The position numbers and the translations under genes are program-made. This document shows, in pieces, positions 3,567 to 62,211 of a stretch of DNA of 64,000 bases. The notes under the pieces were generated by a model, which did not search any database, was not told where the DNA came from, and saw nothing but the letters and a program-made list of their open reading frames with translations. Origin of the DNA: Xiphophorus maculatus (Eukaryota > Chordata > Actinopteri > Cyprinodontiformes > Poeciliidae); assembly GCF_002775205.1 (NCBI RefSeq), contig NC_036456.1, positions 20,457,468 to 20,521,467 of the forward strand. Direction: 5' to 3'. Every line of letters begins with the position of its first letter. Within the stretch, counting starts at the first letter, position 1.

Positions 3567-3593
3567 CTGAGAACAGAACGTCATACTAGACAT

Positions 3594-35907: not shown

Positions 35908-36265
35908 CTACATGGCATGCATTTGAAGCTTTGACCCAACACAGGGCAGGCTGTACACTGTGATGGAGATATTTGTCTCTTTAAAGATCTGTTCCAGGAT
36001 CTTTGACACCTTTGACCACTGCAGCTGGTCCAGGCCACAGCCAATTCTGAGGGAGGAGATACGAGACAAGCAAATTGATTAATTATTCCCAATAAAGAAG
36101 AAGATTTAAGGGTATTTATTATAGTCATTTATTCACAGTAGTTTCTACAAACCGAGGTATTGATATCCTATTGACACCATTTTCTAAGCAGTGAGATTTC
36201 ATGTCTTCCAGACTCTGTCTTAGGTTGACATACGTGGGTTTCTGGCTGGCTTTTGTCTTTGTGAT
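35908..36265 (-). CDS. OARD1: OARD1-like macro-domain hydrolase, exons 3-4 (C-terminal half)
   Basis: Exon 3 (36,153-36,265, acceptor GTCTCAG) begins [20 protein letters not shown] and ends CG|GTTTGT in phase 2. Exon 4 (36,046 down to 35,908, acceptor CCCTCAG) restores Arg and reads [13 protein letters not shown] to a TAG stop. These match the C-terminal half of vertebrate OARD1. The two catalytic residues known in the human enzyme, Lys84 (in ITK) and Asp125 (in GCGLD), are kept here as Lys85 and Asp126 of the joined model. About 15 residues after SITVYSL extend past the human C-terminus. The upstream exon is 25.3 kb away. Confidence 0.92.
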
Positions 36266-36309
36266 CTGAGACACATAATAGGAAAGATACAGTTACCAGA
36301 TTAAACTAG

Positions 36310-36424
36310 AAAAACAAAATTTCTGAAGAAATTTAGCCGGGGCCTGCCAAGGCGCGCCCGTCTGGTTTGTGCCCGGCGTTGTCACGCTACAAATTGGCAT
36401 CGACGCTAAAGGATGCTGCAATGT
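36310..36424 (+). repeat. Solo GC-rich satellite box, decayed
   Basis: A single copy of the GC-rich part of the satellite module, starting AAATTTCTGAAGAAATTTAG, only 45 bp from OARD1 exon 3 and outside the main array. It is the copy with most CpG-to-TpG/CpA changes (for example GGCGTTGTCACGCTAC against GGCGTCGTCGCGCCAC). Confidence 0.85.
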
Positions 36425-37183
36425 AATCAAGTTCAGATTTCTTTAGCCGAAATCTCTTTGCTTCCTTGTCTTTCGTTAGGCGATGAAATACGTTCATGTT
36501 TGGTTCGGTTCAGTTCTACTCTAGTGGGCAGACTGTACCGCAGCTGCTGCGCTACAGATATTTCTCCGCTGATTTTCAGTAAAACTCTACAACGGAGAAC
36601 CTGGAGGTTCTGGTTCGGATGAACAAAATAAACCCAGATATTTTATGTTTTATTATTAGAAATTATTGATAGGCCAAGCATAATGAAAAAAAACTCAGAT
36701 CATGAAGTTATTTTATGTAATTCAAACAAAAATTATAATTTACATCATACCAAGGTAATATTATGTAGTTCTGCTGTTTTTCACTGTCGGCACAAGACGG
36801 CAGCTGAGAGTATCTGTATCCGAAGCAACTGATTCAGTGAAGTAGCTTAATATGCTAGTTCCGGTTATTTGTGGCAATTTCTGCAAGTCACAATAGCTCT
36901 AGGTTGAGGTAAAACAAAATTGCCTTATTTCAGCTGATCAGATTGATGTTAACAGAGATTTTGTAGCCTAACAGGTTTCACGAAAGCCAGTTAGCAAATT
37001 GCTAACATGTGAACAAATTGTGGTTCCATCAAGCTAGCAGCTACGCTATCAGAGCCACAACAAAATATCCCACAGCAGTCAAACTTTTAAAATCGATCAC
37101 ATTTCTTAAAGAACACATTACATTTAACAACTGTAAGCAGTTCTAATAATACTTACCTTAACCAAGCAGTCGGAAGCAGAAAG
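36425..37183. other. OARD1 intron, no feature seen
   Basis: Ordinary AT-rich intronic DNA between the solo box and the LINE fragment. Confidence 0.5.
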
Positions 37184-37690
37184 CTCTTCTTCTTTTTGTT
37201 TTTAATGGCGGTTGGCAAGCAACTTAATGGTGTGCATTACCGCCACCTACTGGTATGGAGTGTGGATCAGGGCGCAACTTAAAAAAAAAAAAACACTAAA
37301 TCCTTTCTATCAGTTTAGTTTTCTTAAGAAATTTTATGAAATAACATAAATATTCATGGGGCGTGCTGTGGTGGCGCAGGGGGTTAGCACGCCCCACGTT
37401 TCAGTTAACCGCTCCCCAATCTAAAGTCTTACATATAATCCTGTTACCTTCAAAAATGTAATAACCGCTTTATTTATTTTGTGTTTAATTAATATCTTAT
37501 TAAGTTTAAATGTCTCTATATCATATTTCCTAATTTATTGTACTTGCTTTATATTTTCCACAATTAATTATTACATGTTCTACTGTTTCCATATCCATAC
37601 CACACTCACATCTACCTGTTGGATGTTTACCAATCAAATTTAAAGTTTTGTTTAATCCAGTATATCCAAGGCACAATCTTTTTTTTTTTC
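37184..37690 (-). mobile_element. LINE 3' end fragment
   Basis: On the minus strand 37,690 to about 37,560 encodes the C-terminal zinc-knuckle-like end of a fish non-LTR retrotransposon (LIGKHPTGRCECGMDMETVE, then HVIINCGKY). The 3' end has the common fish LINE sequence CCAGTAGGTGGCGGTAATGC and a tail of AAG repeats. It is 5'-truncated, lies inside the OARD1 intron, and is interrupted by a SINE fragment. Confidence 0.8.
37358..37400 (+). mobile_element. SINE 5' fragment
   Basis: GGGGCGTGCTGTGGTGGCGC and the following GGTTAGCACG match the start (including the A box) of the SINE at 1,403, then the similarity stops. Confidence 0.7.
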
Positions 37691-37769
37691 ATACTTGCTC
37701 TTTTCGCTTTTCAGACTTACAATACTTCATTTGAGCCAGCTGGGGGAGACAATTCTCTGTTTTAGCCAG

Positions 37770-38180
37770 TAGGGTATTAGGGCGTTTGTAGGAGTTTTCC
37801 CATTGAATTATAATGGGGTTTTTTTCGTAGTTTTTTGCGAATTATGTCGCCATGTTCATCCCGAATCCCACCAAAAGTAATAGCTGGAATGGCGTGAATT
37901 TTCTGCAGGTTTTGATACCTCTTTTGTAGGTGTGCACGCAGCGGTATGAGCCGCATTAACGGTTACGGATGAAAAATAAAGAATTATAATAATAACTAGA
38001 AAATTTCGGAAGAAATTTAGCCGGGGCCTGCCAAGGCGCGCCCGTCGGGCATGGGCCCGGCGTCGTCGCGCCACAAATCGGCGTCGACGCCAAAGGACGC
38101 CGCGACGTGATCAGTGGCACGCGGAGAACCGCAAGAACGTTAAGCGAGGCGGACGTGCACCGTTCGGTACGATTTAAAAT
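37770..38180 (+). repeat. Satellite module 0, 5'-truncated
   Basis: Begins at AGGGTATTAGGGCG, in the middle of the module, and continues through the TTGCGAATTATGTCGCC region and the GC-rich box to CGTTCGGTACG. It marks the left edge of the array, immediately after the LINE fragment. Confidence 0.85.
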
Positions 38181-39668
38181 GTTGTCAAGGCTTTTATTTT
38201 GGAAGTTTTGTTAACCTTCATTTCAAAGGGCCAAACTAATCCCATGCGTAATAGTCCTTGGGTTAAAATAGTTATATAATGCTCAAAACACAAGTAGCTG
38301 ATGTAAAAATATTCAAGGCTTTTATTTTGAAATTTTCAGTATGCTTCATTTCAAAGGGCCAAACTAATACCACGTGTAACAGTGCTTTGGATGAAAAAGT
38401 CAAATAAAGCCAAAAAGAGCAATTACGTCATGTAAAATTATTCAAGGCTTTTATTTTGAAATTTTCAGTATGCTTCATTTCAAAGGGCCAAACTAATACC
38501 ACGTGTAACAGTGCTTTGGATGAAAAAGTCAAATAAAGCCAAAAAGAGCAATTACCTGATGTAAAAATATTCAAGGCTTTTATTTTGAAATTATTATTAT
38601 GCTCCATTTTAAAGTTCCAAACTAATCCCATGTGTAACAGTGCTTTGGATGAAAAAGTCATATAAAGCCAAAAACAGCAATTACCTGATGTAAAAATATT
38701 CAAGGCTTTTATTTTGAAATTTTCAGTATGCTTCATTTCAAAGTTCCAAAGTAATCCCATGTGTAACAGTGCTTTGGATGAAAACGTCAAATAAAGCCAA
38801 AAACAGCAATTACCTGATGTAAAAATATTCAAGGCTTTTATTTTGAAATTATTATTATGCTCCATTTTAAAGTTCCGAACTAATCCCATGTGTAACATTG
38901 CTTTGGATGAAAAAGTCATATACGGCCAAAAAGAGCAATTACTTCATGTAAAATATTCAAGGCTTTTATTTTGAAATTTTCAGTATGCTTCATTTTAAAG
39001 TTCTGAACTAATACCACGTGTAAGAGTGCTTTGGATGAAAAAGTCAAATAAAGCCAAAAAGAGCAATTACGTCATGTAAAAATATTCAAGGCTTTTATTT
39101 TGAAACTTTTGTTAAGCTTCATTTCAAAGGGCCAAACTAATACCACGTGTAACAGTGCTTTGGATGAAAAAGTCAAATAAAGCCAAAAAGAGCAATTACA
39201 TGATGTAAAAATATTCAAGGCTTTAATTTTGAAATTTTTGTTAATATTCATTTCAAAGGGCCAAACTAATACCATGTGTAACAGTGCTTTGGATGAAAAA
39301 GTCAAATAAAGCCAAAAAGAGCAATTACGTCATGTAAAAATATTCAAGGCTTTTATTTTGAAATTTGCAGGATGCTTCATTTCAAAGGGCCAAACTAATC
39401 CCATGCGTAATAGTCCTTCGGTTAAAATAGTTATATAATGCTCAAAACACAAGTAGCTGATGTAAAAATATTCAAGGCTTTTATTTTGAAATTTTTGTTA
39501 AGCTTCATTTTAAAGGGCCAAACTAATACCATGTGTAACAGTGCTTTGGATGAAAAAGTCAAATAAAGCCAAAAAAGAGCAATTACGTCATGTAAAAATA
39601 TTCAGGGCTTTTATTGTGAAATTTTCAATATGCTTAATTTTAAAGTGTAAAACTAATCCCATGTGTAA

Positions 39669-40670
39669 CAGTTACTGAGTTAAATCAGTTATATACAGCC
39701 CATAGCAGCAATTAGTTCTAAAGGCCAGTTCAGTCCTGATCTGTTTCAACTGAGGATAGATAGAACTACAACGATGCGTATTCGTAGTCCTAACCAGCAG
39801 CCAATAGCCTCTTGAGTTCCGTTGCTATGGCAAATAATGGTCTCAGCAGGTGTGAGCTCTGAGCTGTGAGCTCTCAAACACACAAGTGTGTTTGAGCAAA
39901 CACACTTTACTGAAAAAAAGCATTGGAAACAAATCCTTCTTGTTCGGGAACCGTAATACATATTCGAAAAGCGTTTTAAGCGTATGACAGTTCAATGTGT
40001 CTTCTGCGATAGTCCCGAGATTCATATCTGTACCTCACTCAGAGCATTTACAGTGATGAGAGAAAGAAATGTTGTGCCCAGATATGAACCGAGGTCGGCT
40101 GTCACTCTAATATGAGCAAAAATGAGAAACTTTGGGTCGCTTAGAGGCAAATTGTGGACAAACCATAACTGGTATCGACGAGCCGTCTTCACTTTCGAAG
40201 AGATCACAGACGTATCTACAAAATGAAATTTGAATGGCATTTCTAGGTGAATTTGTGACGACACAGCAAATCCTCAAAAATAGGGTATTTCTAGGATTTT
40301 TCCCATTGAGTTATAATGGGGTTTTTTTCGTAGTTTTTTGCGAATTATGTCGCCATGTTAATCCCGAATCCCACCAAAAGTAATAGCTGGAATGGCGTGA
40401 ATTTTCTGCACGTTTTGATACCTCTTTTGTAGGTGTGCACGCAGCGGTATGAGCCGCATTAACGGTTACGGATGAAAAATAAAGAATAAAAAATTTCGGA
40501 AGAAATTTAGACGGGGCCTGCCAAGGCGCGGCCGTGGGGTTCGGGCCCGGCGTCGTCGCGCCACAAATCGGCGTCGACGCCAAAGAACGCCGCGACGTAA
40601 GCAGTGGCACGCGGAGAACCGCAAGAACGTTAAGCGAGGCGGACGTGCACCGTTCGGTACGATTTAAAAT
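39669..40670 (+). repeat. Satellite module 1
   Basis: Starts at CAGTTACTGAGTTAAATCAG, which replaces the second half of a monomer. In order it holds the TTGTTCGGGAACC segment, a palindrome near 39,871-39,894, the TATCGACGAGCCGTC segment, the TTGCGAATTATG segment and the GC-rich box. Its box carries a variant (AAATTTAGACGGGGCC). Confidence 0.9.
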
Positions 40671-41640
40671 GTTGTCAAGGCTTTTATTTTGGAAGTTTTG
40701 TTAAACTTCATTTCAAAGGGCCAAACTAATCCCATGCGTAATAGTCCTTGGGTTAAAATAGTTATATAATGCTCAAAACACAAGTAGCTGATGTAAAAAT
40801 ATTCAAGGCTTTTATTTTGAAATTTTCAGTATGCTTCATTTCAAAGGGCCAAACTAATACCACGTGTAACAGTGCTTTGGATGAAAAAGTCAAATAAAGC
40901 CAAAAAGAGCAATTACGTCATGTAAAATTATTCAAGGCTTTTATTTTGAAATTTTCAGAATGCTTCATTTCAAAGGGCCAAACTAATACCACGTGTAACA
41001 GTGCTTTGGATGAAAAAGTCAAATAAAGTCAAAAAGAGCAATGACCTGATGTAAAAATATTCAAGGCTTTTATTTTGAAATTATTATTATGCTCCATTTT
41101 AAAGTTCCAAACTAATCCCATGTGTAACAGTGCTTTGGATGAAAAAGTCATATAAAGCCAAAAACAGCAATTACCTGATGTAAAAATATTCAAGGCTTTT
41201 ATTTTGAAATTATTATTATGCTCCATTTTAAAGTTCCAAACTAACCCCATGTGTAACAGTGCTTTGGATGAAAACGTCAAATAAAGCCAAAAACAGCAAT
41301 TACCTGATGTAAAAATATTCAAGGCTTTTATTTTGAAATTATTATTCTCCATTTTAAAGTTCCAAACTAATCCCATGTGTAACATTGCTTTGGATGAAAA
41401 AGTCATATACGGCCAAAAAAAGCAATTACCTGATGTAAAAATATTCAAGGCTTTTATTTTGAAATTATTATTATTCTCCATTTTAAAGTTCCAAAGTAAT
41501 CCCATGTGTAACAGTGCTTCGGATGAAAACGTCAAATAAAGCCAAAAACAGCAATTACCTGATGTAAAAATATTCAAGGCTTTTATTTTGAAATTATTAT
41601 TATGCTCCATTTTAAAGTTCCAAACTAATCCCATGTGTAA

Positions 41641-42650
41641 CAGTTACTGAGTTAAATGAGTTATATACAGCCCATAGCAGCAGTAGTTCTAAAGGCCAGT
41701 TCTCAGTCCTGATCTGTTTCAACTGAGGATAGATAGAACTACAGTGATGCGTATTCGTAGTCCAAATCAGCAGCCAATAGCCTCTTGAGTTCCGTTGCTA
41801 TGGCAAATAATGGTCTCAGCAGGTGTGAGCTCTGAGCTGTGAGCTCTCAAACACACAAGTGTGTTTGAGCAAACACACTTTACTGAAAAAAAGCATTGGA
41901 AACAAATCCTTCTTGTTCGGGAACCGTAATACATATTCGAAAAGCGTTTCGAGCGTATGACAGTTCAATGTGTCTTCTGCGATAGTCCCGAGATTCATAT
42001 CTGTACCTCACTCAGAGCATTTACAGCGATGAGAGAAAGAAATGTTGTGCCCAGATATGAACCGAGATGGGCTGTCACTCTAATTTGAAGAAAAATGAGA
42101 AACTTTGGGTCGCTTAGAGGCAAATTGTGGACAAACCGTAACTGGTATCGACGAGCCGTCTTCACTTTCGAAGAGATCACAGACGTATCTACAAAATGAA
42201 ATTTGAATGGCATTTCTAGGTGAATTTGTGACGACACAGCAAATCCTCAAAAATAGGGTATTTCTAGGATTTTTCCCATTGAGTTATAATGGGGTTTTTT
42301 TCGTAGTTTTTTGCGAATTATGTCGCCACGTTAAGCCCAAATCCCACCAGAAGTAATAGCTCCAATGGCGTGAATTTTCTGCACGTTTTGATACCTCATT
42401 TGTAGGTGTGCACCCAGCGGTACGAGCCGCATTAACGGTTACGGAAGAAAAATAAAGAATTATAACTAGAAAATTTCGGAAGAAATTTAGCCGGGGCCTG
42501 CCAAGGCGCGCCCGTGGGGTTTTGGGCCCGGCGTCGTCGCGCCACAAATCGGCGTCGACGCCAAAGGACGCCGCGACGTGATCAGTGGCACGCGGAGAAC
42601 CGCAAGAACGTTAAGTGAGGCGGACGTGCACCGTTCGGTACGATTTAAAA
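41641..42650 (+). repeat. Satellite module 2
   Basis: Same plan as module 1. It is the left partner of module 6. Confidence 0.9.
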
Positions 42651-44265
42651 TTTTCTCGAGGCTTTTATTTTGGAAGTTTTGTTAAACTTCATTTCAAAGG
42701 GCCAAACTAATCCCATGCGTAATAGTCCTTGGGTTAAAATAGTTATATAATGCTGAAAACAGCAATTACATGATGTAAAAATATTCAAGGCTTTTATTTT
42801 GAAATTATTATTATGCTCCATTTCAAAGTTCCAAACTAATCCCATGTGTAACAGTGCTTTGGATGAAAAAGTCATATACGGCCAAAAAGAGCAATTACAT
42901 GATGTAAAAATATTCAAGGCTTTTATTTTGAAATTTTCAGTATGCTTCATTTCAGAGGGCCAAACTATTCCATTGTGTAACAGTGCTTTGGATAAAAATG
43001 TCACATAAAGCCAAAAACCGCAATTACATGATGTAAAAATATTCAAGGCTTTTATTTTGAAATTATTATTATGCTCCATTTTAAAGTTCCGAACGAATCC
43101 CATGTGTAACAGTGCTTTGGATGAAAAAGTCATACAAAGCCAAAAAGAGCAATGACCTGATGTAAAAATATTCAAGGTTTTTATTTTGAAATTATTATTA
43201 TGCTTAATTTTAAAGTTCCGAACTAATCACATGTGTAACAGTGCTTTGGATGAAAAAGTCATACAAAGACAGAAACAGCAATTGCATGATGTAAAAATAT
43301 TCAAGGCTTTTATTTTGAAATTATTATTATGCTCCATTTTAAAGTTCCGAACTAATACCACGTGTAACATTGCTTTGGATGAAAAAGTCACATAAAGCCA
43401 AAAACAGCAATTACCTGATGTAACAACATTCAAGGCTTTTATTTTGAAATTATTATTATGCTCCATTTTAAAGTTCCGAACTAATCCCATGTGTAACATT
43501 GCTTTGGATGAAAAAGTCATATACGGCCAAAAAGAGCAATTACTTCATGTAAAATATTCAAGGCTTTTATTTTGAAATTTTCAGTATGCTTCATTTTAAA
43601 GTTCTGAACTAATACCACGTGTAAGAGTGCTTTGGATGAAAAAGTCAAATAAAGCCAAAAAGAGCAATTACGTCATGTAAAAATATTCAAGGCTTTTATT
43701 TTGAAATTTTTGTTAAGCTTCATTTTAAAGGGCCAAACTAATACCACGTGTAACAGTGCTTTGGATGAAAAAGTCACATAAAGCCAAAAACAGCAATTAC
43801 CTGATGTAAAAATATTCAAGGCTTTCATTTTGAAATTATTATTATGCTCCATTTTAAAGTTCCGAACTAATCCCATGTGTAACATTGCTTCGGATGAAAA
43901 AGTCATATACGGCCAAAAAGAGCAATTACGTCATGTAAAATATTCAAGGCTTTTATTTTGAAATTATTATTCTCCATTTTAAAGTTCCAAAGTAATCCCA
44001 TGTGTAACATTGCTTTGGATGAAAAAGTCATATACGGCCAAAAAAAGCAATTACCTGATGTAAAAATATTCAAGGCTTTTATTTTGAAATTATTATTATT
44101 CTCCATTTTAAAGTTCCAAAGTAATCCCATGTGTAACAGTGCTTTGGATGAAAACGTCAAATAAAGCCAAAAACAGCAATTACCTGATGTAAAACTATTC
44201 AAGGCTTTTATTTTGAAATTATTATTATGCTCCATTTTAAAGTTCCAAACTAATCCCATGTGTAA

Positions 44266-45270
44266 CAGTTACTGAGTTAAATCAGTTATATACAGCCCAT
44301 AGCAGCAGTAGTTCTAAAGGCCAGTTCTCAGTCCTGATCTGTTTCAACTGAGGATAGATAGAACTACAGTGATGCGTATTCGTAGTCCTAACCAGCAGCC
44401 AATAGCCTCTTGAGTTCCGTTGCTATGGCAAATAATGGTCTCAGCAGGTGTGAGCTCTGAGCTGTGAGCTCTCAAACACACAAGTGTGTTTGAGCAAACA
44501 CACTTTACTGAAAAAAAGCATTGGAAACAAATCCTTCTTGTTCGGGAACCGTAATACATATTCGAAAAGCGTTTCGAGCGTATGACAGTTCAATGTGTCT
44601 TCTGCGATAGTCCCGAGATTCATATCTGTACCTCACTCAGAGCATTTACAGCGATGAGAGAAAGAAATGTTGTGCCCAGATATGAACCGAGATGGGCTGT
44701 CACTGTAATTTCAGCAAAAATGAGAAAGTTTGGGTCGCTTAGAGGCAAATTGTGGACAAACCGTAACTGGTATCGACGAGCCGTCTTCACTTTCGAAGAG
44801 ATCACAGACGTATCTACAAAATGAAATTTGAATGGCATTTCTAGGTGAATTTGTGACGACACAGCAAATCCTCAAAAATAGGGTATTTCTAGGATTTTTC
44901 CCATTGAGTTATAATGGGGTTTTTTTCGTAGTTTTTTGCGAATTATGTCGCCACGTTAAGCCCAAATCCCACCAAAAATAATAGCTCCAATGGCGTGAAT
45001 TTTCTGCACGTTTTGATACCTCATTTGTAGGTGTGCACCCAGCGGTATGAGCCGCATTAACGGTTACGGAAGAAAAATAAAGTTCTACTAGAAAATTTCG
45101 GAAGAAATTTAGCCGGGGCCTGCCAAGGCGCGCCCGTGGGGTTCGGGCCCGGCGTCGTCACGCCACAAATCGGCATCGACGCTAAAGAACGCCGCGACGT
45201 AATCAATGGCACGCGGAGAACCGCAAGAACGTTAAGCGAGGCGGACGTGCACCATTCAGTACGATTTAAA
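44266..45270 (+). repeat. Satellite module 3
   Basis: Same plan. The GC-rich box has more CpG loss (GCATCGACGCTAAAGAACGC; ACCATTCAGTACG). Left partner of module 7. Confidence 0.9.
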
Positions 45271-46116
45271 ATTTTTGTCAAGGCTTTTATTTTGGAAGTT
45301 TTGTTAAACTTCATTTTAAAGTTCCGAACTAATCCCATGTGTAACAGTGCTTTGGATGAAAAAGTCATACAAAGCCAAAAACAGCAATTGCATGATGTAA
45401 AAATATTCAAGGCTTTTATTTTGAAATTTTCAGTATGCTCCATTTTAAAGTTCTGAACGAATCCCATGTGTAACAGTGCTTTGGATAAAAAAGTCACATA
45501 AAGCCAAAAAGCGCAATTACCTGATGTAAAAATATGCAAGGCTTTTATTTTGAAATTATTATTATGCTCCATTTTAAAGTTCCGAACTAATCCCATGTGT
45601 AACAGTGCTTTGGATGAAAAAGTCACATAAAGCCAAAAAGCGCAATTACCTGATGTAAAAATATTCAAGGCTTTTATTTTGAAATTTTCAGTATGCTTCA
45701 TTTCAGAGGGCCAAACTATTCCATTGTGTAACAGTGCTTTGGATAAAAAAGTCACATAAAGCCAAAAAGCGCAATTACCTGATGTAAAAATATTCAAGGC
45801 TTTTATTTTGAAATTATTATTATGCTCCATTTTAAAGTTCCGAACTAATCCCATGTGTAACATTGCTTTGGATGAAAAAGTCATATACGGCCAATAAGAG
45901 CAATTACGTCATGTAAAATATTCAAGGCTTTTATTTTGAAATTATTATTATGCTCCATTTTAAAGTTCCAAACTAATCCCATGTGTAACATTGCTTTGGA
46001 TGAAAAAGTCATATACGGCCAAAAAGAGCAATTACGTCATGTAAAATATTCAAGGCTTTTATTTTGAAATTTTCAGTATGCTTAATTTTAAAGTTCCAAA
46101 CTAATCCCATGTGTAA

Positions 46117-47515
46117 CAGTTACTGAGTTCAATCAGTTATATACAGCCCATAGCAGCAGGTAGTTCTAAAGGCCAGTTCTCAGTCCTGATCTGTTTCAAC
46201 TGAGGATAGATAGAACTACAGCGATGCGTATCTGTAGTCCAAATCAGCAGCCAATAGCCTCTTGAGTTCCGTTGCTATGGTAAATAATGGTCTCAGCAGG
46301 TGTGAGCTCTGAGCGCTGAGCTCTCAAACACACAATTGTGTGTTTGAGCAAACACATTTTACTGACAAAAAAGCATTGGAAACAAATCCTTCTTGTTCGG
46401 GAACCGTAATACATATTCGAAAAGCGTTTGCAGCGTATGACAGTTCAATGTGTCTTCTGCGATAGTCCCGAGATTCATATCTGTACCTCACTCAGAACAT
46501 TTACAGCGATGAGAGAAAGAAATGTTGTGCCCAGATCTGAAATTCTATTCAAATACATGGGAGAGAGCCTCAGACAGCCTCAGAAAATCCTGTCGCATGA
46601 CTTTGCTCTGAAGCACCGTGACAGAAAACCGTACGGTCTAGATAAATTTCGAAAACATTTTACCGGAGCAGACAGGCGTATCAATGTCAGGACCGATTTT
46701 GATACTAATCGTGCGATATTTGTGGGCGTGATGGCGATTTCAAAAATGATTTGGGTTGAAAAAGTTGTCTTCATCTCTCACTCTAAGCAGCCAGAAACGC
46801 ACTCTAACTTGAGCAAAAATGAGAAACTTTGGGTCGCTTAGAGGCAAATTGTGGACAAACCGTAACTGGTATCGACGAGCCGTCTTCACTTTCGAAGAGA
46901 TCACAGACGTATCTACAAAATGAAATTTGAATGGCATTTCTAGGTGAATTTGTGACGACACAGCAAATCCTCAAAAATAGGGTATTTCTAGGATTTTTCC
47001 CATTGAGTTATAATGGGGTTTTTTTCGCAGTTTTTTGCGAATTATGTCGCCACGTTAAGCCCAAATCCCACCAAAAATAATAGCTCCAATGGCGTGAATT
47101 TTCTGCACGTTTTGATACCTCATTTGTAGGTGTGCACCCAGCGGTACGAGCCGCATTAACGGTTACGGAAGAAAAATAAAGAATTATAATAATATTAAAG
47201 AGACGCTTGTTGGGTGTAGAGTAATAGGTTCCTGCCATTGCTTTGCATGGCAGGCCCCAATAATATTAAAGAGACGCTTGTTGGGTGTAGAGTAATAGGT
47301 TCCTGCCATTGCTTTGCATGGCAGGCCCCAACTAGAAAATTTCGGAAGAAATTTAGCCGGGGCCTGCCAAGGCGCGCCCGTCGGGCATGGGCCCGGCGTC
47401 GTCACGCTACAAATCGGCGTCGACGCCAAAGAACGCCGCGACGTAAGCAGTGGCACGCGGAGAACCGCAAGAACGTTAAGCGAGGCGGACGTGCACCGTT
47501 CGGTACGATTTAAAA
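46117..47515 (+). repeat. Satellite module 4, long form
   Basis: Carries about 270 bp (46,540-46,808) that most modules lack, and a double copy of a 73-bp segment (47,185-47,331) with the hairpin CCTGCCAT...ATGGCAGG. Its palindrome is a perfect 26-bp form. Left partner of module 8. Confidence 0.9.
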
Positions 47516-50208: not shown

Positions 50209-50665
50209 GTTGTCGAGGCTTTTATTTTGGAAGTTTTGTTAAACTTCATTTCAAAGGGCCAAACTAATCCCATGCGTAATAGTCCTTGGGTTAAAATAGT
50301 TATATAATGCTCAAAACGCAAGTAGCTGATGTAAAAATATTCAAGGCTTTTATTTTGAAATTTTCAGTATGCTTCATTTTAAAGTTCTGAACTAATACCA
50401 CGTGTAAGAGTGCTTTGGATGAAAAAGTCAAATAAAGCCAAAAAGAGCAATTACGTCATGTAAAAATCTTCAAGGCTTTTATTTTGAAATTTTCAGTATG
50501 CTTCATTTCAAAGGGACAAACTAATTCCATGTGTAACAGTGCTTCGGATGAAAACGTCAAATAAAGCCAAAAACAGCAATTACCTGATGTAAAAATATTC
50601 AAGGCTTTTATTTTGAAATTATTATTATGCTCCATTTTAAAGTTCCAAACTAATCCCATGTGTAA

Positions 50666-51675
50666 CAGTTACTGAGTTAAATGAGTTATATACAGCCCAT
50701 AGCAGCAGTAGTTCTAAAGGCCAGTTCTCAGTCCTGATCTGTTTCAACTGAGGATAGATAGAACTACAGTGATGCGTATTCGTAGTCCAAATCAGCAGCC
50801 AATAGCCTCTTGAGTTCCGTTGCTATGGCAAATAATGGTCTCAGCAGGTGTGAGCTCTGAGCTGTGAGCTCTCAAACACACAAGTGTGTTTGAGCAAACA
50901 CACTTTACTGAAAAAAAGCATTGGAAACAAATCCTTCTTGTTCGGGAACCGTAATACATATTCGAAAAGCGTTTCGAGCGTATGACAGTTCAATGTGTCT
51001 TCTGCGATAGTCCCGAGATTCATATCTGTACCTCACTCAGAGCATTTACAGCGATGAGAGAAAGAAATGTTGTGCCCAGATATGAACCGAGATGGGCTGT
51101 CACTCTAATTTGAAGAAAAATGAGAAACTTTGGGTCGCTTAGAGGCAAATTGTGGACAAACCGTAACTGGTATCGACGAGCCGTCTTCACTTTCGAAGAG
51201 ATCACAGACGTATCTACAAAATGAAATTTGAATGGCATTTCTAGGTGAATTTGTGACGACACAGCAAATCCTCAAAAATAGGGTATTTCTAGGATTTTTC
51301 CCATTGAGTTATAATGGGGTTTTTTTCGTAGTTTTTTGCGAATTATGTCGCCACGTTAAGCCCAAATCCCACCAGAAGTAATAGCTCCAATGGCGTGAAT
51401 TTTCTGCACGTTTTGATACCTCATTTGTAGGTGTGCACCCAGCGGTACGAGCCGCATTAACGGTTACGGAAGAAAAATAAAGAATTATAACTAGAAAATT
51501 TCGGAAGAAATTTAGCCGGGGCCTGCCAAGGCGCGCCCGTGGGGTTTTGGGCCCGGCGTCGTCGCGCCACAAATCGGCGTCGACGCCAAAGGACGCCGCG
51601 ACGTGATCAGTGGCACGCGGAGAACCGCAAGAACGTTAAGTGAGGCGGACGTGCACCGTTCGGTACGATTTAAAA
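50666..51675 (+). repeat. Satellite module 6
   Basis: Duplicate of module 2 at an offset of 9,025 bp. Confidence 0.9.
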
Positions 51676-53290
51676 TTTTCTCGAGGCTTTTATTTTGGAA
51701 GTTTTGTTAAACTTCATTTCAAAGGGCCAAACTAATCCCATGCGTAATAGTCCTTGGGTTAAAATAGTTATATAATGCTGAAAACAGCAATTACATGATG
51801 TAAAAATATTCAAGGCTTTTATTTTGAAATTATTATTATGCTCCATTTCAAAGTTCCAAACTAATCCCATGTGTAACAGTGCTTTGGATGAAAAAGTCAT
51901 ATACGGCCAAAAAGAGCAATTACATGATGTAAAAATATTCAAGGCTTTTATTTTGAAATTTTCAGTATGCTTCATTTCAGAGGGCCAAACTATTCCATTG
52001 TGTAACAGTGCTTTGGATAAAAATGTCACATAAAGCCAAAAACCGCAATTACATGATGTAAAAATATTCAAGGCTTTTATTTTGAAATTATTATTATGCT
52101 CCATTTTAAAGTTCCGAACGAATCCCATGTGTAACAGTGCTTTGGATGAAAAAGTCATACAAAGCCAAAAAGAGCAATGACCTGATGTAAAAATATTCAA
52201 GGTTTTTATTTTGAAATTATTATTATGCTTAATTTTAAAGTTCCGAACTAATCACATGTGTAACAGTGCTTTGGATGAAAAAGTCATACAAAGACAGAAA
52301 CAGCAATTGCATGATGTAAAAATATTCAAGGCTTTTATTTTGAAATTATTATTATGCTCCATTTTAAAGTTCCGAACTAATACCACGTGTAACATTGCTT
52401 TGGATGAAAAAGTCACATAAAGCCAAAAACAGCAATTACCTGATGTAACAACATTCAAGGCTTTTATTTTGAAATTATTATTATGCTCCATTTTAAAGTT
52501 CCGAACTAATCCCATGTGTAACATTGCTTTGGATGAAAAAGTCATATACGGCCAAAAAGAGCAATTACTTCATGTAAAATATTCAAGGCTTTTATTTTGA
52601 AATTTTCAGTATGCTTCATTTTAAAGTTCTGAACTAATACCACGTGTAAGAGTGCTTTGGATGAAAAAGTCAAATAAAGCCAAAAAGAGCAATTACGTCA
52701 TGTAAAAATATTCAAGGCTTTTATTTTGAAATTTTTGTTAAGCTTCATTTTAAAGGGCCAAACTAATACCACGTGTAACAGTGCTTTGGATGAAAAAGTC
52801 ACATAAAGCCAAAAACAGCAATTACCTGATGTAAAAATATTCAAGGCTTTCATTTTGAAATTATTATTATGCTCCATTTTAAAGTTCCGAACTAATCCCA
52901 TGTGTAACATTGCTTCGGATGAAAAAGTCATATACGGCCAAAAAGAGCAATTACGTCATGTAAAATATTCAAGGCTTTTATTTTGAAATTATTATTCTCC
53001 ATTTTAAAGTTCCAAAGTAATCCCATGTGTAACATTGCTTTGGATGAAAAAGTCATATACGGCCAAAAAAAGCAATTACCTGATGTAAAAATATTCAAGG
53101 CTTTTATTTTGAAATTATTATTATTCTCCATTTTAAAGTTCCAAAGTAATCCCATGTGTAACAGTGCTTTGGATGAAAACGTCAAATAAAGCCAAAAACA
53201 GCAATTACCTGATGTAAAACTATTCAAGGCTTTTATTTTGAAATTATTATTATGCTCCATTTTAAAGTTCCAAACTAATCCCATGTGTAA

Positions 53291-54295
53291 CAGTTACTGA
53301 GTTAAATCAGTTATATACAGCCCATAGCAGCAGTAGTTCTAAAGGCCAGTTCTCAGTCCTGATCTGTTTCAACTGAGGATAGATAGAACTACAGTGATGC
53401 GTATTCGTAGTCCTAACCAGCAGCCAATAGCCTCTTGAGTTCCGTTGCTATGGCAAATAATGGTCTCAGCAGGTGTGAGCTCTGAGCTGTGAGCTCTCAA
53501 ACACACAAGTGTGTTTGAGCAAACACACTTTACTGAAAAAAAGCATTGGAAACAAATCCTTCTTGTTCGGGAACCGTAATACATATTCGAAAAGCGTTTC
53601 GAGCGTATGACAGTTCAATGTGTCTTCTGCGATAGTCCCGAGATTCATATCTGTACCTCACTCAGAGCATTTACAGCGATGAGAGAAAGAAATGTTGTGC
53701 CCAGATATGAACCGAGATGGGCTGTCACTGTAATTTCAGCAAAAATGAGAAAGTTTGGGTCGCTTAGAGGCAAATTGTGGACAAACCGTAACTGGTATCG
53801 ACGAGCCGTCTTCACTTTCGAAGAGATCACAGACGTATCTACAAAATGAAATTTGAATGGCATTTCTAGGTGAATTTGTGACGACACAGCAAATCCTCAA
53901 AAATAGGGTATTTCTAGGATTTTTCCCATTGAGTTATAATGGGGTTTTTTTCGTAGTTTTTTGCGAATTATGTCGCCACGTTAAGCCCAAATCCCACCAA
54001 AAATAATAGCTCCAATGGCGTGAATTTTCTGCACGTTTTGATACCTCATTTGTAGGTGTGCACCCAGCGGTATGAGCCGCATTAACGGTTACGGAAGAAA
54101 AATAAAGTTCTACTAGAAAATTTCGGAAGAAATTTAGCCGGGGCCTGCCAAGGCGCGCCCGTGGGGTTCGGGCCCGGCGTCGTCACGCCACAAATCGGCA
54201 TCGACGCTAAAGAACGCCGCGACGTAATCAATGGCACGCGGAGAACCGCAAGAACGTTAAGCGAGGCGGACGTGCACCATTCAGTACGATTTAAA
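53291..54295 (+). repeat. Satellite module 7
   Basis: Duplicate of module 3 at an offset of 9,025 bp. Confidence 0.9.
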
Positions 54296-55141
54296 ATTTT
54301 TGTCAAGGCTTTTATTTTGGAAGTTTTGTTAAACTTCATTTTAAAGTTCCGAACTAATCCCATGTGTAACAGTGCTTTGGATGAAAAAGTCATACAAAGC
54401 CAAAAACAGCAATTGCATGATGTAAAAATATTCAAGGCTTTTATTTTGAAATTTTCAGTATGCTCCATTTTAAAGTTCTGAACGAATCCCATGTGTAACA
54501 GTGCTTTGGATAAAAAAGTCACATAAAGCCAAAAAGCGCAATTACCTGATGTAAAAATATGCAAGGCTTTTATTTTGAAATTATTATTATGCTCCATTTT
54601 AAAGTTCCGAACTAATCCCATGTGTAACAGTGCTTTGGATGAAAAAGTCACATAAAGCCAAAAAGCGCAATTACCTGATGTAAAAATATTCAAGGCTTTT
54701 ATTTTGAAATTTTCAGTATGCTTCATTTCAGAGGGCCAAACTATTCCATTGTGTAACAGTGCTTTGGATAAAAAAGTCACATAAAGCCAAAAAGCGCAAT
54801 TACCTGATGTAAAAATATTCAAGGCTTTTATTTTGAAATTATTATTATGCTCCATTTTAAAGTTCCGAACTAATCCCATGTGTAACATTGCTTTGGATGA
54901 AAAAGTCATATACGGCCAATAAGAGCAATTACGTCATGTAAAATATTCAAGGCTTTTATTTTGAAATTATTATTATGCTCCATTTTAAAGTTCCAAACTA
55001 ATCCCATGTGTAACATTGCTTTGGATGAAAAAGTCATATACGGCCAAAAAGAGCAATTACGTCATGTAAAATATTCAAGGCTTTTATTTTGAAATTTTCA
55101 GTATGCTTAATTTTAAAGTTCCAAACTAATCCCATGTGTAA

Positions 55142-56540
55142 CAGTTACTGAGTTCAATCAGTTATATACAGCCCATAGCAGCAGGTAGTTCTAAAGGCCA
55201 GTTCTCAGTCCTGATCTGTTTCAACTGAGGATAGATAGAACTACAGCGATGCGTATCTGTAGTCCAAATCAGCAGCCAATAGCCTCTTGAGTTCCGTTGC
55301 TATGGTAAATAATGGTCTCAGCAGGTGTGAGCTCTGAGCGCTGAGCTCTCAAACACACAATTGTGTGTTTGAGCAAACACATTTTACTGACAAAAAAGCA
55401 TTGGAAACAAATCCTTCTTGTTCGGGAACCGTAATACATATTCGAAAAGCGTTTGCAGCGTATGACAGTTCAATGTGTCTTCTGCGATAGTCCCGAGATT
55501 CATATCTGTACCTCACTCAGAACATTTACAGCGATGAGAGAAAGAAATGTTGTGCCCAGATCTGAAATTCTATTCAAATACATGGGAGAGAGCCTCAGAC
55601 AGCCTCAGAAAATCCTGTCGCATGACTTTGCTCTGAAGCACCGTGACAGAAAACCGTACGGTCTAGATAAATTTCGAAAACATTTTACCGGAGCAGACAG
55701 GCGTATCAATGTCAGGACCGATTTTGATACTAATCGTGCGATATTTGTGGGCGTGATGGCGATTTCAAAAATGATTTGGGTTGAAAAAGTTGTCTTCATC
55801 TCTCACTCTAAGCAGCCAGAAACGCACTCTAACTTGAGCAAAAATGAGAAAGTTTGGGTCGCTTAGAGGCAAATTGTGGACAAACCGTAACTGGTATCGA
55901 CGAGCCGTCTTCACTTTCGAAGAGATCACAGACGTATCTACAAAATGAAATTTGAATGGCATTTCTAGGTGAATTTGTGACGACACAGCAAATCCTCAAA
56001 AATAGGGTATTTCTAGGATTTTTCCCATTGAGTTATAATGGGGTTTTTTTCGCAGTTTTTTGCGAATTATGTCGCCACGTTAAGCCCAAATCCCACCAAA
56101 AATAATAGCTCCAATGGCGTGAATTTTCTGCACGTTTTGATACCTCATTTGTAGGTGTGCACCCAGCGGTACGAGCCGCATTAACGGTTACGGAAGAAAA
56201 ATAAAGAATTATAATAATATTAAAGAGACGCTTGTTGGGTGTAGAGTAATAGGTTCCTGCCATTGCTTTGCATGGCAGGCCCCAATAATATTAAAGAGAC
56301 GCTTGTTGGGTGTAGAGTAATAGGTTCCTGCCATTGCTTTGCATGGCAGGCCCCAACTAGAAAATTTCGGAAGAAATTTAGCCGGGGCCTGCCAAGGCGC
56401 GCCCGTCGGGCATGGGCCCGGCGTCGTCACGCTACAAATCGGCGTCGACGCCAAAGAACGCCGCGACGTAAGCAGTGGCACGCGGAGAACCGCAAGAACG
56501 TTAAGCGAGGCGGACGTGCACCGTTCGGTACGATTTAAAA
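55142..56540 (+). repeat. Satellite module 8, long form
   Basis: Duplicate of module 4. The only noticed difference is G at 55,852 for C, a variant also present in modules 3 and 7. Confidence 0.9.
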
Positions 56541-58155
56541 TGTTGTCAAGGCTTTTATTTTGGAAGTTTTGTTAAACTTCATTTCAAAGGGCCAAACTAA
56601 TCCCATGCGTAATAGTCCTTGGGTTGAAATAGTTATATAATGCTCAAAACACAAGTAGCTGATGTAAAAATATTCAAGGCTTTTATTTTGAAATTTTCAG
56701 TATGCTTCATTTCAAAGGGCCAAACTAATACCACGTGTAACAGTGCTTTGGATGAAAAAGTCAAATAAAGCCAAAAAGAGCAATTACGTCATGTAAAATT
56801 ATTCAAGGCTTTTATTTTGAAATTTTCAGAATGCTTCATTTCAAAGGGCCAAACTAATACCACGTGTAACAGTGCTTTGGATGAAAAAGTCAAATAAAGC
56901 CAAAAAGAGCAATTACCTGATGTAAAAATATTCAAGGCTTTTATTTTGAAATTATTATTATGCTCCATTTTAAAGTTCCGAACTAATCCCATGTGTAACA
57001 TTGCTTTCGATGAAAAAGTCATATACGGCCAAAAAGAGCAATTACGTCATGTAAAATATTCAAGGCTTTTATTTTGAAATTTTCAGTATGCTTAATTTTA
57101 AAGTTCCAAACTAATCCCATGTGTAACAGTGCTTTGGATGAAAACGTCAAATAAAGCCAAAAACAGCAATTACCTGATGTAAAAATATTCAAGGCTTTTA
57201 TTTTGAAATTATTATTATGCTCCATTTTAAAGTTCCGAACTAATCCCATGTGTAACAGTGCTTTGGATGAAAAAGTGAAATAAAGCCAAAAAGAGCAATT
57301 ACCTGATGTAAAAATATTCAAGGCTTTTATTTTGAAATTATTATTATGCTCCATTTTAAAGTTCCAAACTAATCCCATGTGTAACATTGCTTTGGATGAA
57401 AAAGTCATATACGGCCAAAAAAAGCAATTACCTGATGTAAAAATATTCAAGGCTTTTATTTTGAAATTATTATTATGCTCCATTTTAAAGTTCCGAACTA
57501 ATCCCATGTGTAACAGTGCTTTGGATGAAAAAGTGAAATAAAGCCAAAAAGAGCAATTACCTGATGTAAAAATATTCAAGGCTTTTATTTTGAAATTATT
57601 ATTATGCTCCATTTTAAAGTTCCAAACTAATCCCATGTGTAACAGTGCTTTGGATGAAAAAGTCATATAAAGCCAAAAACAGCAATTACCTGATGTAAAA
57701 ATATTCAAGGCTTTTATTTTGAAATTATTATTATTCTCCATTTTAAAGTTCCAAAGTAATCCCATGTGTAACAGTGCTTTGGATGAAAACGTCAAATAAA
57801 GCCAAAAACAGCAATTACCTGATGTAAAAATATTCAAGGCTTTTATTTTGAAATTATTATTCTCCATTTTAAAGTTCCAAACTAATCCCATGTGTAACAT
57901 TGCTTTGGATGAAAAAGTCATATACGGCCAAAAAAAGCAATTACCTGATGTAAAAATATTCAAGGCTTTTATTTTGAAATTATTATTATTCTCCATTTTA
58001 AAGTTCCAAAGTAATCCCATGTGTAACAGTGCTTTGGATGAAAACGTCAAATAAAGCCAAAAACAGCAATTACCTGATGTAAAACTATTCAAGGCTTTTA
58101 TTTTGAAATTATTATTATGCTCCATTTTAAAGTTCCAAACTAATCCCATGTGTAA

Positions 58156-59233
58156 CAGTTACTGAGTTAAATCAGTTATATACAGCCCATAGCAGCAGTA
58201 GTTCTAAAGGCCAGTTCTCAGTCCTGATCTGTTTCAACTGAGGATAGATAGAACTACAGTGATGCGTATTCGTAGTCCAAATCAGCAGCCAATAGCCTCT
58301 TGAGTTCCGTTGCTATGGCAAATAATGGTCTCAGCAGGTGTGAGCTCTGAGCTGTGAGCTCTCAAACACACAAGTGTGTTTGAGCAAACACACTTTACTG
58401 AAAAAAAGCATTGGAAACAAATCCTTCTTGTTCGGGAACCGTAATACATATTCGAAAAGCGTTTCGAGCGTATGACAGTTCAATGTGTCTTCTGCGATAG
58501 TCCCCAGATTCATATCTGTACCTCACTCAGAGCATTTACAGTGATGAGAGAAAGAAATGTTGTGCCCAGATCTGAACCGAGATCGGCTGTCACTGTAATT
58601 TCAGCAAAAATGAGAAACTTTGGGTCGCTTAGAGGCAAATTGTGGACAAACCATAACTGGTATCGACGAGCCGTCTTCACTTTCGAAGAGATCACAGACG
58701 TATCTACAAAATGAAATTTGAATGGCATTTCTAGGTGAATTTGTGACGACACAGCAAATCCTCAAAAATAGGGTATTTCTAGGATTTTTCCCATTGAGTT
58801 ATAATGGGGTTTTTTTCGTAGTTTTTTGCGAATTATGTCGCCACGTTTACCCCAAATCCCACCACAAGTAATAGCTCCAAAGGCGTGAATTTTCTGCACG
58901 TTTTGATACCTCATTTGTAGGTGTGCACCCAGCGGTATGAGCCGCATTAACGGTTACGGAAGAAAAATAAAGAAGTATAATAATAAAGAGACGCTTGTTG
59001 GGTGTAGAGTAATAGGTTCCTGCCATTGCTTTGCATGGCAGGCCCCAACTAGAAAATTTCGGAAGAAATTTAGCCGGGGCCTGCCGAGGCGCGCCCGGGG
59101 GGCATGGGCCCGGCGTCGTCACGCCAGAAATCGGCGTCGACGCCAAAGGACGCCGCGACGCGATCAGCGGCACGCGGAGAACCGCAAGAACGTCGAGCGA
59201 GGCGGACGCGCACCGTTCGGTACGATTTAAAAT
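58156..59233 (+). repeat. Satellite module 9, most CpG-rich box
   Basis: Duplicate of module 5 at an offset of 9,025 bp. Confidence 0.9.
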
Positions 59234-60591
59234 GTTGTCGAGGCTTTTATTTTGGAAGTTTTGTTAAACTTCATTTCAAAGGGCCAAACTAATCCCATGC
59301 GTAATAGTCCTTGGGTTAAAATAGTTATATAATGCTCAAAACGCAAGTAGCTGATGTAAAAATATTCAAGGCTTTTATTTTGAAATTTTCAGTATGCTTC
59401 ATTTTAAAGTTCTGAACTAATACCACGTGTAAGAGTGCTTTGGATGAAAAAGTCAAATAAAGCCAAAAAGAGCAATTACGTCATGTAAAAATCTTCAAGG
59501 CTTTTATTTTGAAATTTTCAGTATGCTTCATTTCAAAGGGACAAACTAATTCCATGTGTAACAGTGCTTTGGATGAAAAAGTCAAATAAAGCCAAAAAGA
59601 GCAATTACGTCATGTAAAAATATTCAAGGCTTTTATTTTGAAATTTTCAGTATGCTTCATTTTAAAGTTCCGAACTAATACCACGTGTAACAGTGCTTTG
59701 GATGAAAAAGTCAAATAAAGCCAAAAAGAGCAATTACGTCATGTAAAAATATTCAAGGCTTTTATTTTGACATTTTCAGTATGCTTCATTTCAAAGGGCC
59801 AAACTAATACCATGTGTAACAGTGCTTTGGATGAAAAAGTCACATAAAGCCAAAAACAGCAATTACCTGATTTAAAAATATTCAAGGCTTTTATTTTGAA
59901 ATTTTCATTACGCTTCATTTTAAAGTTCTGAACTAATACCATGTGTAACAGTGCTTTGGATGAAAAAGTCAAATAAAGCCAAAAAAGAGCAATTACATGA
60001 TGTAAAAATATTCAAGGCTTTTATTTTGAAATTTTCAGTATGCTTCATTTCAATGGGCCAACCTAATCCCATGAATAACAGTCATTGGATAAAATCAGTT
60101 ATATAATGCTCAAAACACAAGTAGTTGATGTAACAATATTCAAGGCTTTTAATTTGAAATTATTATTATGCTCCATTTTAAAGTTCCGAACTAATCCCAT
60201 GTGTAACAGTGCTTTGGATGAAAAAGTCATATACGGCCAAAAAGAGCAATTACATGATGTAAAAATATTCAAGGCTTTTATTTTGAAATTTTCAGTATGC
60301 TTCATTTTAAAGGGCCAAACTAATCCCATGTGTAATAGTCATTGGGTTAAATCAGTTATATAATGCTCAAAACAAAAGTAGTTGATGTAAAAATATTCAA
60401 GGCTTTTATTTTGAAATTATTATTATGCTCCATTTGAAAGTTCCGAACTAATCCCATGTGTAACAGTGCTTTGGATGAAAAAGTCATATACGGCCAAAAA
60501 GAGCAATTACGTCATGTAAAATATTCAAGGCTTTTATTTTGAAATTTTCAGTATGCTTAATTTTAAAGTTCCAAACTAATCCCATGTGTAA

Positions 60592-61550
60592 CAGTTACTG
60601 AGTTAAATCAGTTATATACAGCCCATAGCAGTTCTAAAGGCCAGTTCAGTCCTCCTCTGTTTCAACTGAGTATTCCACTATAGATAGAACTACAGTGATG
60701 CGTATTCGTAGTCCTAACCAGCAGCCAATAGCCTCTTGAGATCCGTTGCTATGGCAAATAATGGTCTCAGCAGGTGTGAGCTCTGAGCTCTGAGCGCTCA
60801 AACACACAAGTGTGTTTGAGCAAACACACTTTACTGAAAAAAAGCATTGGAAACAAATCCTTCTTGTTCGGGAACCGTAATACATATTCGAAAAGCGTTT
60901 TAAGCGTATGACAGTTCAATGTGTCTTCTGCGATAGTCCCGAGATTCATATCTGTACCTCACTCAGAGCATTTACAGTGATGAGAGAAAGAAATGTTGTG
61001 CCCAGATATGAACCGAGGTCTGCTGTCACTCTAATTTGAAGAAAAATGAGAAACTTTGGGTCGCTTAGAGGCAAATTGTGGACAAACCGTAACTGGTATC
61101 GACGAGCCGTCTTCACTTTCGAAGAGATCACAGACGTATCTACAAAATGAAATTTGAATGGCATTTCTAGGTGAATTTGTGACGACACAGAAAATCCTCA
61201 AAAATAGGGTAAAATAGGGTATTTCTAGGATTTTTCCCATTGACTTATAATGGGATTTTTTTCGTAGTTTTTTGCGAATTATGTCGCCACGTTAAGCCCA
61301 AATCCCACCAAAAGTAATAGCAATCATGGCGTGAATTTTCTGCACGTTTTGATACCTCATTTGTAGGTGTGCACCCAGCGGTATGAGCCGCATTAACGGT
61401 TACGGAAGAAAAATAAATAAAGAGACACTTCTCTCCGACAATAGTAATAGGTTCCTGCCATTTGCATGGCAGGCCCCAATAATAATAAAGAAACTTTTCT
61501 TGGGAGAATAGCAATAGGTTCCTGCCATTGCTTTGCATGGCAGGCCCCAA
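60592..61550 (+). repeat. Satellite module 10, right edge, without GC-rich box
   Basis: Same plan up to the TTACGGAAGAAAAATAAA segment. It then runs into two diverged copies of the hairpin segment (GGTTCCTGCCATTTGCATGG; GGTTCCTGCCATTGCTTTGC) and stops 49 bp before OARD1 exon 2. A short duplication of AAAATAGGGT lies at 61,200-61,219. Confidence 0.88.
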
Positions 61551-61598
61551 TAATGAAACAGGTTTTGGTCCTATGCAGTATAATTGTGGTATATTTAC

Positions 61599-61981
61599 CA
61601 GATAGTAGATGAAACGTTGATCATGTGTCAGGACAGCACACAGCCCTGGAAGCTTCTCTATTAGGACATACAAAAAAAAAATACAAAACAGGATATGATT
61701 TAGCACTTGCTGTTGAAATCAGACATTTGAATGAACTGTAAAAACATAAAACATTTTTTCCAAAACAAAGACTTTAGTAACTAGTCTGACTCACTCTGCT
61801 TCTTTAACTCTGAGACTCGACCAAACTTCTTCTTGAACATCACCGCTATGCCTGCTCCCATGCGACAGTCTTCACTGATGCAGTGGGCCAAGGATTCATC
61901 GCATGGACAGGAGAACAAATCTCCGGTGACATACTTTAATGTCCAGTTGGTTGATTGATAGAGTTCCTCAGTTTTGCCCAT
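61599..61981 (-). CDS. OARD1: OARD1-like macro-domain hydrolase, exons 1-2 (N-terminal half)
   Basis: A macro-domain enzyme that removes ADP-ribose from glutamate and deacylates O-acetyl-ADP-ribose. Exon 1 (61,795-61,981) reads [20 protein letters not shown], then [19 protein letters not shown] and [15 protein letters not shown], the ADP-ribose-binding core of OARD1. It ends A|GTGAGT in phase 1. Exon 2 (61,599-61,657, acceptor CTAATAG) gives [20 protein letters not shown] and ends CTG|GTAAAT in phase 0, which fits exon 3 at 36,265. The joined model has 165 residues; human OARD1 has 152. An ATG two codons upstream (61,987) is an alternative start. The open frame continues to 62,149, but family length and an acceptor-like TTTTCTCCAAG near 62,005 argue for the shorter start. 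Confidence 0.92.
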
Positions 61982-62211
61982 GTTCATAATTTCTTCAAAC
62001 GCAACTTGGAGAAAACTATAACCACAAAGTACCAAATTGGTAACGGCGCTTACTACAGCCTTGCTTATCCCCTCTACATATGGCCCCACACTAGGCTGTG
62101 TCTCATTGTTCCTGAAAGCACCACCCACTTTAGCTGAATTTTTTTCCAAATTTGTCCGGGGTTGTTAGTCCCAGTAAACTACAAAAAGCTGGATTTTCTG
62201 TTTACCATAAA

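Follow-up and report, generated by a model that had tools for sequence, protein, structure and literature searches.

Non-autonomous Helitrons of the HINE/DINE-1 and Cg_HINE kinds, and the Mavericks or Polintons of vertebrates, are the closest described systems to the DNA studied here. The former are described with short inverted repeats close to each end, a palindrome at the 3' side and central repeats, with a form ending in 5'TT/3'CTAG that inserts between A and T (PMC4067079), and satellite-like repeats are reported as the central repeats of such Helentron elements (PMC7492417). Vertebrate Mavericks are described with (AG)3 and (AGT)2 end motifs, 6-bp target-site duplications, lengths of 12.7-24.6 kb and accessory regions, and a Xiphophorus Maverick is included in the list of that report (PMC8097293). 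Here we analysed a stretch of 64,000 nucleotides of Xiphophorus maculatus (assembly GCF_002775205.1, contig NC_036456.1, positions 20,457,468 to 20,521,467; hereafter the window), in which an OARD1/TARG1-like gene contains a 25-kb array in its second intron. The locus is very probably made of two nested mobile elements, a Helitron array lying inside an OARD1 copy that is itself borne by a Maverick-type element, so that a supposed tolerated satellite becomes the nesting of two transposon systems.

The nearest fish precedent is that of the texim genes of platyfish, where a host-type enzyme gene was also multiplied by a transposon in Xiphophorus; however, the carrier there is a Helitron, whereas here the carrier is of the Maverick type and the Helitron arrives later (PMC4021074). 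In the openly licensed PMC literature we found no report joining polinton with macro domain or maverick with OARD1, a broader search of it gave no such capture in the titles and abstract openings among the matches listed, and the excerpt of PMC6431247 contains no case of this kind.

Results

The OARD1/TARG1-like frame lies on the minus strand in four exons separated by three GT-AG introns, and is open over 504 bp (167 amino acids). Coding exon 1 (61795..61987, donor A|GTGAGT) is followed by exon 2 (61599..61657, AG|...|GTAAAT), exon 3 (36153..36265, CTCAG|ATCACA) and exon 4 (35908..36046), which brings the stop codon into the spliced frame. Intron 2 measures exactly 25,333 bp and is in phase 0 at both its ends, and the window is written in A, C, G and T only, with no N, as unbroken sequence. 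The protein aligns with the human C6orf130/OARD1 structures (PDB 2eee and 4j5r) at E 2e-60, gap-free over 140 residues, and matches Pfam Macro at E 2.8e-6. An initial annotation, made from the letters alone, had already recognised an OARD1-like macro-domain gene with a single 25,333-bp intron in phase 0 on both sides, and size and phases are reproduced here. Its upper limit for the gene, 61981, is the second in-frame Met, exon 1 reaching 61987; the Lys and Asp that it reported intact as Lys85 and Asp126 are kept, with the numbering K87 and D128. These residues align to human K84 and D125, the catalytic residues of the human enzyme. Neither human residue was found in PMC5928194, where both were sought.

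Nearly the whole of intron 2 is occupied by 11 non-autonomous Helitron units arranged head to tail (36306..61550, minus strand, 25,245 bp), which begin with 5' TTGGGGCCTGCC, end with CTAG 3' and lie between A and T of CATTA^TTTAATC, leaving 88 bp of the original intron. The count of units follows from 11 heads and 11 3' hairpins, and all these landmarks are oriented like the gene. The units open with a non-tandem head of about 0.8-1.0 kb, continue with 129-bp monomers in a block, and finish in a GC-rich tail that closes with the hairpin and CTAG. Ten monomer blocks are present on the minus strand between 38185 and 60595 (38185-39672, 40675-41644, 42659-44269, 45278-46120, 47521-49134, 50216-50669, 51684-53294, 54303-55145, 56546-58159 and 59241-60595) and total 12,403 bp, that is 49% of the array, the remainder being heads, GC-rich tails and one cargo. 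The initial annotation had described the intron as nearly all satellite and had considered an insertion; the insertion is borne out by the array ends and by empty sites elsewhere, and the tandem repeats amount to about half of the array. In the unit closest to exon 3 (36306..38006, minus strand), a 1.3-kb cargo (36425-37770) replaces the 129-bp repeats, and three solitary copies of this type measure 1,755-1,762 bp. Within the array, a four-head stretch of 9,025 bp is tandemly duplicated (41502..50544 and 50527..59569) with one mismatch in 9,043 bp, whereas other unit pairs differ by about 5-13%; this near identity indicates that the stretch was either recently duplicated or repeated by the assembly.

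The units have Helitron ends and an empty site, are dispersed in the genome, and share their 3' end with a Rep-encoding Helitron. In the solitary copies L010, L014 and L018 the order is A|TTGGGGCCTGCC ... GGCAGGCCCC ... hairpin ... CTAG|T; each carries the 3' hairpin, has GGGGCCTGCC/GGCAGGCCCC close to its ends and is bounded as A|TTGGGGCC...CTAG|T. The CTRR-type 3' end is CTAG|T, preceded by a hairpin AAATTTCTTC(C/A)GAAATTT, both in the solitary copies and in the array, while the 5' end, TTGGGGCC, departs from the canonical TC. The insertion lies between A and T, the empty site being CATTATTTAATC. Among the OARD1 copies read, the insertion is confined to that of the window: of the 17 other mobile copies, all but one, the partial copy L046, have the empty site in intron 2 (16 of 17), and the diverged locus L047 has a variant form of it. 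Comparison of the empty CATTATT[T/C]AAT with the filled CATTATT|GGGGCC...CTAG|TTTAATCTGG reveals extra Ts, which allow three equivalent readings: A^T, T^T or a 2-bp TT duplication.

Regarding dispersal, a 481-bp piece of the head is found with 100% identity at all 40 places scored elsewhere in the genome (best 40 of 1,974 candidates). The cargo is full length at 40 of 40 scored places, the window among them, with 96-100% identity (best 40 of 2,403 candidates), and 24 of the 39 other copies scored are full length and 99-100% identical. Another unit's 3' end stands just upstream at 7/8 head loci and 6/9 cargo loci, so that head-to-tail arrangement is common in this Helitron family. Rep-domain (PF14214) matches number 24 in the genome, with 19 in frames of more than 2,000 amino acids. 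At the Rep locus C9:30.889 Mb (frame of 2,341 amino acids; 1 of 24 Rep loci examined), the downstream end closes with this hairpin and with CTAG|T, and it is 88.7-95.4% identical to the eleven array tails, ten of them over 173-180 bp and one over 114 bp; neither a head nor a 129-bp repeat precedes this 3' end in the stretch read. Given the match of ends, hairpin and interior with the published elements, the array is most readily interpreted as a series of non-autonomous Helitrons whose interior is satellite-like. It resembles HINE/DINE-1 and Cg_HINE in showing no coding sequence, in the inverted repeats near the ends, the 3' palindrome, the central satellite-like repeats, the dispersed copies and the insertion without loss of target bases. 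In contrast to them, the ends here are 5'TT...CTAG3', like those of the Phytophthora 'proto-Helentron', and complete units follow one another head to tail, within a gene that another transposon carries (PMC4067079, PMC7492417).

The cargo itself (36425-37770, minus strand) contains, by eye, a C-terminal fragment resembling a long interspersed nuclear element, and a short frame beginning MNVFHRL. Its segment preceding AAG|gtaagt is presumably a promoter-like fish repeat. A Pfam search with the MNVFHRL peptide for a parent gene gave only a DUF4186 match below the cut-off (E 0.21).

Outside the gene, the left arm of the carrier (29237..35227, plus strand) forms a 6,005-bp inverted repeat, 98.8% identical, with 62209-68187; the right arm (minus strand) occupies 62209..64000 of the window and runs to about 68187 in the neighbouring stretch L031. 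The apparent insertion target is a minisatellite of 88 copies of 36 bp (26075..29239, plus strand), and a piece of the same monomer is found past the right end of the carrier. Subtracting the later Helitron insertion, the carrier measures about 13.7 kb, and it has no polymerase match of its own. Pieces of exons remain in the arms (33100-33970, plus strand, and 63200-63640, minus strand), which look like those of a fish C-type lectin receptor gene; the two pieces tried gave no match in Pfam.

The carrier has defined ends, and its termini are common with places bearing a protein-primed DNA polymerase B (PolB). When the outer 800 bp of the arm were searched (40 of 604 candidates scored), convergent pairs appeared around OARD1 on C12, C17, C6, C10, C23, C7, C24, C57 and C4, 14.8-16.4 kb apart. 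Together with that of the window, this makes ten OARD1 elements with convergent terminal repeats, holding 11 copies in all. Their ends mostly read AGAGAG ACTC TATAGGCACCC (ACGTAATAGG in the window), and (AG)3 is present in 19/22 ends, the C6 right and window left ends having (AG)2 and the C10 right end (AG)4. A script found perfect 6-bp target-site duplications in 8/11 end pairs (the ten elements and one on C18), against 1/110 mismatched pairs; this lone control hit involves the right flank of C57, which is that of C7. The C18 element (C18:4688999-4702396, 13.4 kb) shares these ends and is flanked by a perfect target-site duplication, with no OARD1 match.

A search for the protein-primed PolB family located the N-terminal part of the model at eight places, in addition to partial matches on C28 and C7. 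For six of these eight places, a terminal-repeat match of the same orientation stands 5-8 kb further out, so that the carriers can be read as Maverick/Polinton-type elements with captured cargo. We conclude that the OARD1 carriers are probably elements of this type without detected core genes. They resemble the vertebrate elements in the (AG)3 ends, the 6-bp duplication, the size range and the terminal repeat at PolB places. They differ in holding an intron-bearing host-type gene with no core gene detected, and the window copy is palindromic with arms of about 6 kb, longer than the terminal repeats of 46-1,447 bp reported (PMC8097293). Two other stretches, L036 and L048, are also palindromic within the 10 kb read. 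The palindromic arms raised a herpesvirus-type or Teratorn element as a candidate, which was dropped on the (AG)3 ends, the 6-bp duplications and the co-location with PolB.

As a separate observation, the right arm of the C12 element (L041 7352-8788, minus strand) contains an OB-fold gene in open pieces; it matches HIN-200 at 24.8 bits, above the Pfam cut-off, and its best PDB match is mouse Ifi204 (E 3e-4). To our knowledge, a HIN-200-type gene is unusual in fish.

A protein search of the same genome returned 62 exon matches at about 19 loci, from which 18 stretches of 10 kb were taken: L031 adjoins the window copy, and L032-L048 comprise 17 other mobile copies (two of them in L035) and the locus L047. 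Counting the window copy, 18 intron-bearing mobile copies are dispersed in the genome. The full frame is kept in 9/18 (the window and L036-L043), the window copy being distinguished from the eight other intact ones by its codons 29 and 70, and stops, frameshifts or missing exons affect the other nine (L032-L034, L035 twice, L044, L045, L046 and L048). The gene of the window is thus probably not the resident ortholog, being one of these 18 copies. The initial annotation had proposed that the gene either tolerates a heterochromatin-like intron or was split and silenced by the insertion; what is found instead is one of 18 transposon-borne copies, with an array of Helitrons. It had also suggested a search for a second, compact OARD1, and compact copies do exist elsewhere, in addition to a separate probable host ortholog. 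It named as contrary to its reading a lack of spliced transcripts joining the two halves together with a complete OARD1 elsewhere; of this pair, the complete OARD1 elsewhere is present. In viral contigs there was no OARD1 relative, terminal repeat or Helitron tail.

Two of these loci have peculiar arrangements. L035 (C4:28.204-28.214 Mb) holds two head-to-head OARD1 copies in one element, with the same stop codon in both. The element on C57, a contig of 46.7 kb (L034, L065 and L066), is nearly identical to that of C7, with the right flank of C7 and a different left flank; C57 is likely a misplaced or chimeric contig, possibly an assembly duplicate of C7.

L047 (C1:23.37 Mb) is the most diverged among the loci with all four exons, it matches human OARD1 equally well, and its neighbour matches guanylate cyclase-activating protein 2 (GCAP2, E 1e-24). 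The human OARD1 and GCAP genes lie near each other. Two short motifs of NFYA were sought beside L047 and not found. We consider L047 the probable host ortholog of OARD1. Its homology with the mobile copies extends over about 770 bp, with four exons and their introns, and both protein ends of the mobile copies differ. These copies retain the macrodomain of human OARD1/TARG1 and its K and D, presumably those of the active site, and differ from it by a 13-letter N-terminus and an 11-letter C-terminus beyond the segment homologous to L047. When L047 is compared with six intact mobile copies, the ratio of nonsynonymous to synonymous substitution rates (dN/dS) is 0.15-0.19, and the introns are 28-31% different (ten copies compared). 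As long neutrality of the mobile lineage would be expected to give a higher dN/dS, its ancestor was probably constrained for much of the time, in the element or in a host.

Discussion

These findings suggest a sequence of events in which a Maverick/Polinton-type transposon would have captured an intron-bearing fragment of the host OARD1 gene, furnished with its own start and tail, and would have spread over many chromosomes, presumably with polymerase and integrase supplied by related autonomous Mavericks. One carrier copy may have landed in the 36-bp minisatellite, and a non-autonomous Helitron would then have entered intron 2 of that single copy between A and T, with no bases lost. The array may have inserted in head-to-tail form, or have grown into it by rolling-circle tandem insertion and unequal exchange, the four-unit duplication of 9,025 bp being possibly the latest step of growth. 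The frame stays intact as the array spares both splice sites.

Several observations weigh against this nested arrangement or parts of it. On the Helitron side, the C9 3' end lies about 2.5 kb past the Rep open frame and could belong to a separate insertion, no Helitron 5' end was found in the 2.6 kb upstream of the C9 Rep match, and the near-exact 9-kb duplication may be an assembly error. Regarding the carrier, the ends are unlocated for seven mobile copies (C9, C22, C21, C1:10.7 Mb, two on C2 and C20). The target-site duplication of the window matches at 4/6 positions and lies inside the 36-bp minisatellite, that of C57 matches at 2/6, and that of C10 at 3/6 by script, reaching 6/6 only when its end is read as (AG)3. 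No PolB match was found at any OARD1 locus, in a search that did not extend to the genes for integrase, ATPase and capsid, so that membership among the Mavericks rests on ends, duplications and common termini. As for the gene, the nine intact copies show 14 nonsynonymous and 10 synonymous changes, with a per-site ratio of 0.38 in a set chosen for open frames, which hints weakly at continued constraint among them.

How these elements should otherwise be explained was considered along several lines. The main proposal of the initial annotation, a classical heterochromatic satellite grown in the intron of a resident and tolerating OARD1 gene, would account for the 129-bp monomers in ten blocks forming 49% of the array and for the intact frame. 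Nevertheless, a classical satellite should be purely tandem, without element ends or dispersed solitary copies, and L010, L014 and L018 are solitary with both ends, so that the blocks are interiors of a dispersed element; a resident gene is also disfavoured, by the existence of 17 further mobile copies and of L047 as a diverged locus, and we regard this explanation as extremely improbable. Ordinary segmental duplication without transposition would fit the large near-identical blocks (C6 against C12, 99.85% over 10 kb), the kept introns and the palindromic variants; it appears very unlikely given that in ten elements convergent terminal repeats enclose the copies, in most cases along with target-site duplications.

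The outer element might also be a terminal-inverted-repeat transposon of another superfamily, with 6-bp duplications by chance, as the failure to find a Maverick core gene in the OARD1 carriers would allow. The terminal repeats match PolB-bearing places in orientation and spacing, however, and the ends carry the (AG)3 reported in PMC8097293, which makes such an origin improbable, if less so than segmental duplication. Somewhat more weight is due to an assembly artefact producing the array, or at least the 9,025-bp duplication, whose copies have one mismatch in 9,043 bp, as against differences of about 5-13% between other unit pairs. Still, the array has its junctions at both ends within one and the same intron, and this family commonly has its units head to tail (7/8 head loci, 6/9 cargo loci), and we consider an artefact rather unlikely.

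Regarding the function of the gene under the nested-transposon explanation, correct splicing is possible, since both splice sites and 88 bp of the intron are left. Intron 2 contains 101 AATAAA in sense and 52 in antisense, compared with a mean of 20.5 after mononucleotide shuffling, and 94 AAAATAAAAGCC motifs. The sense count makes premature polyadenylation a concrete possible route of silencing, and such an effect on the window copy is plausible. Whether a full-length mRNA is made would be decided between long-range splicing and use of AATAAA in the 129-bp repeats. Tolerance of heterochromatin by an essential gene is not demonstrated here. As sister copies keep the empty site, they offer closely related controls, within one genome, for measuring how a 25-kb insertion affects splicing. 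The locus also offers a vertebrate case in which Maverick-type elements multiply an intron-bearing host-type enzyme gene, of a type relevant to virus-host conflict. A tentative extension, to which we give less than even chances, is that a virus-like element of the Maverick type took up the OARD1/TARG1 ADP-ribosylhydrolase gene, introns included, and retained it as functional cargo alongside the HIN-200-like OB-fold gene of one arm type, possibly undoing PARP-based antiviral ADP-ribosylation or sensing DNA, and that one copy was later disabled or regulated by the Helitron array.

Additional observations

Scans of the window with Rfam at gathering scores and for tRNA found nothing. Besides the 36-bp minisatellite at 26075-29239, the window contains one of 43 copies of 17 bp (461-1193) and another of 41 copies of 21 bp (3593-4455), with monomer matches of 93-95% across the three.

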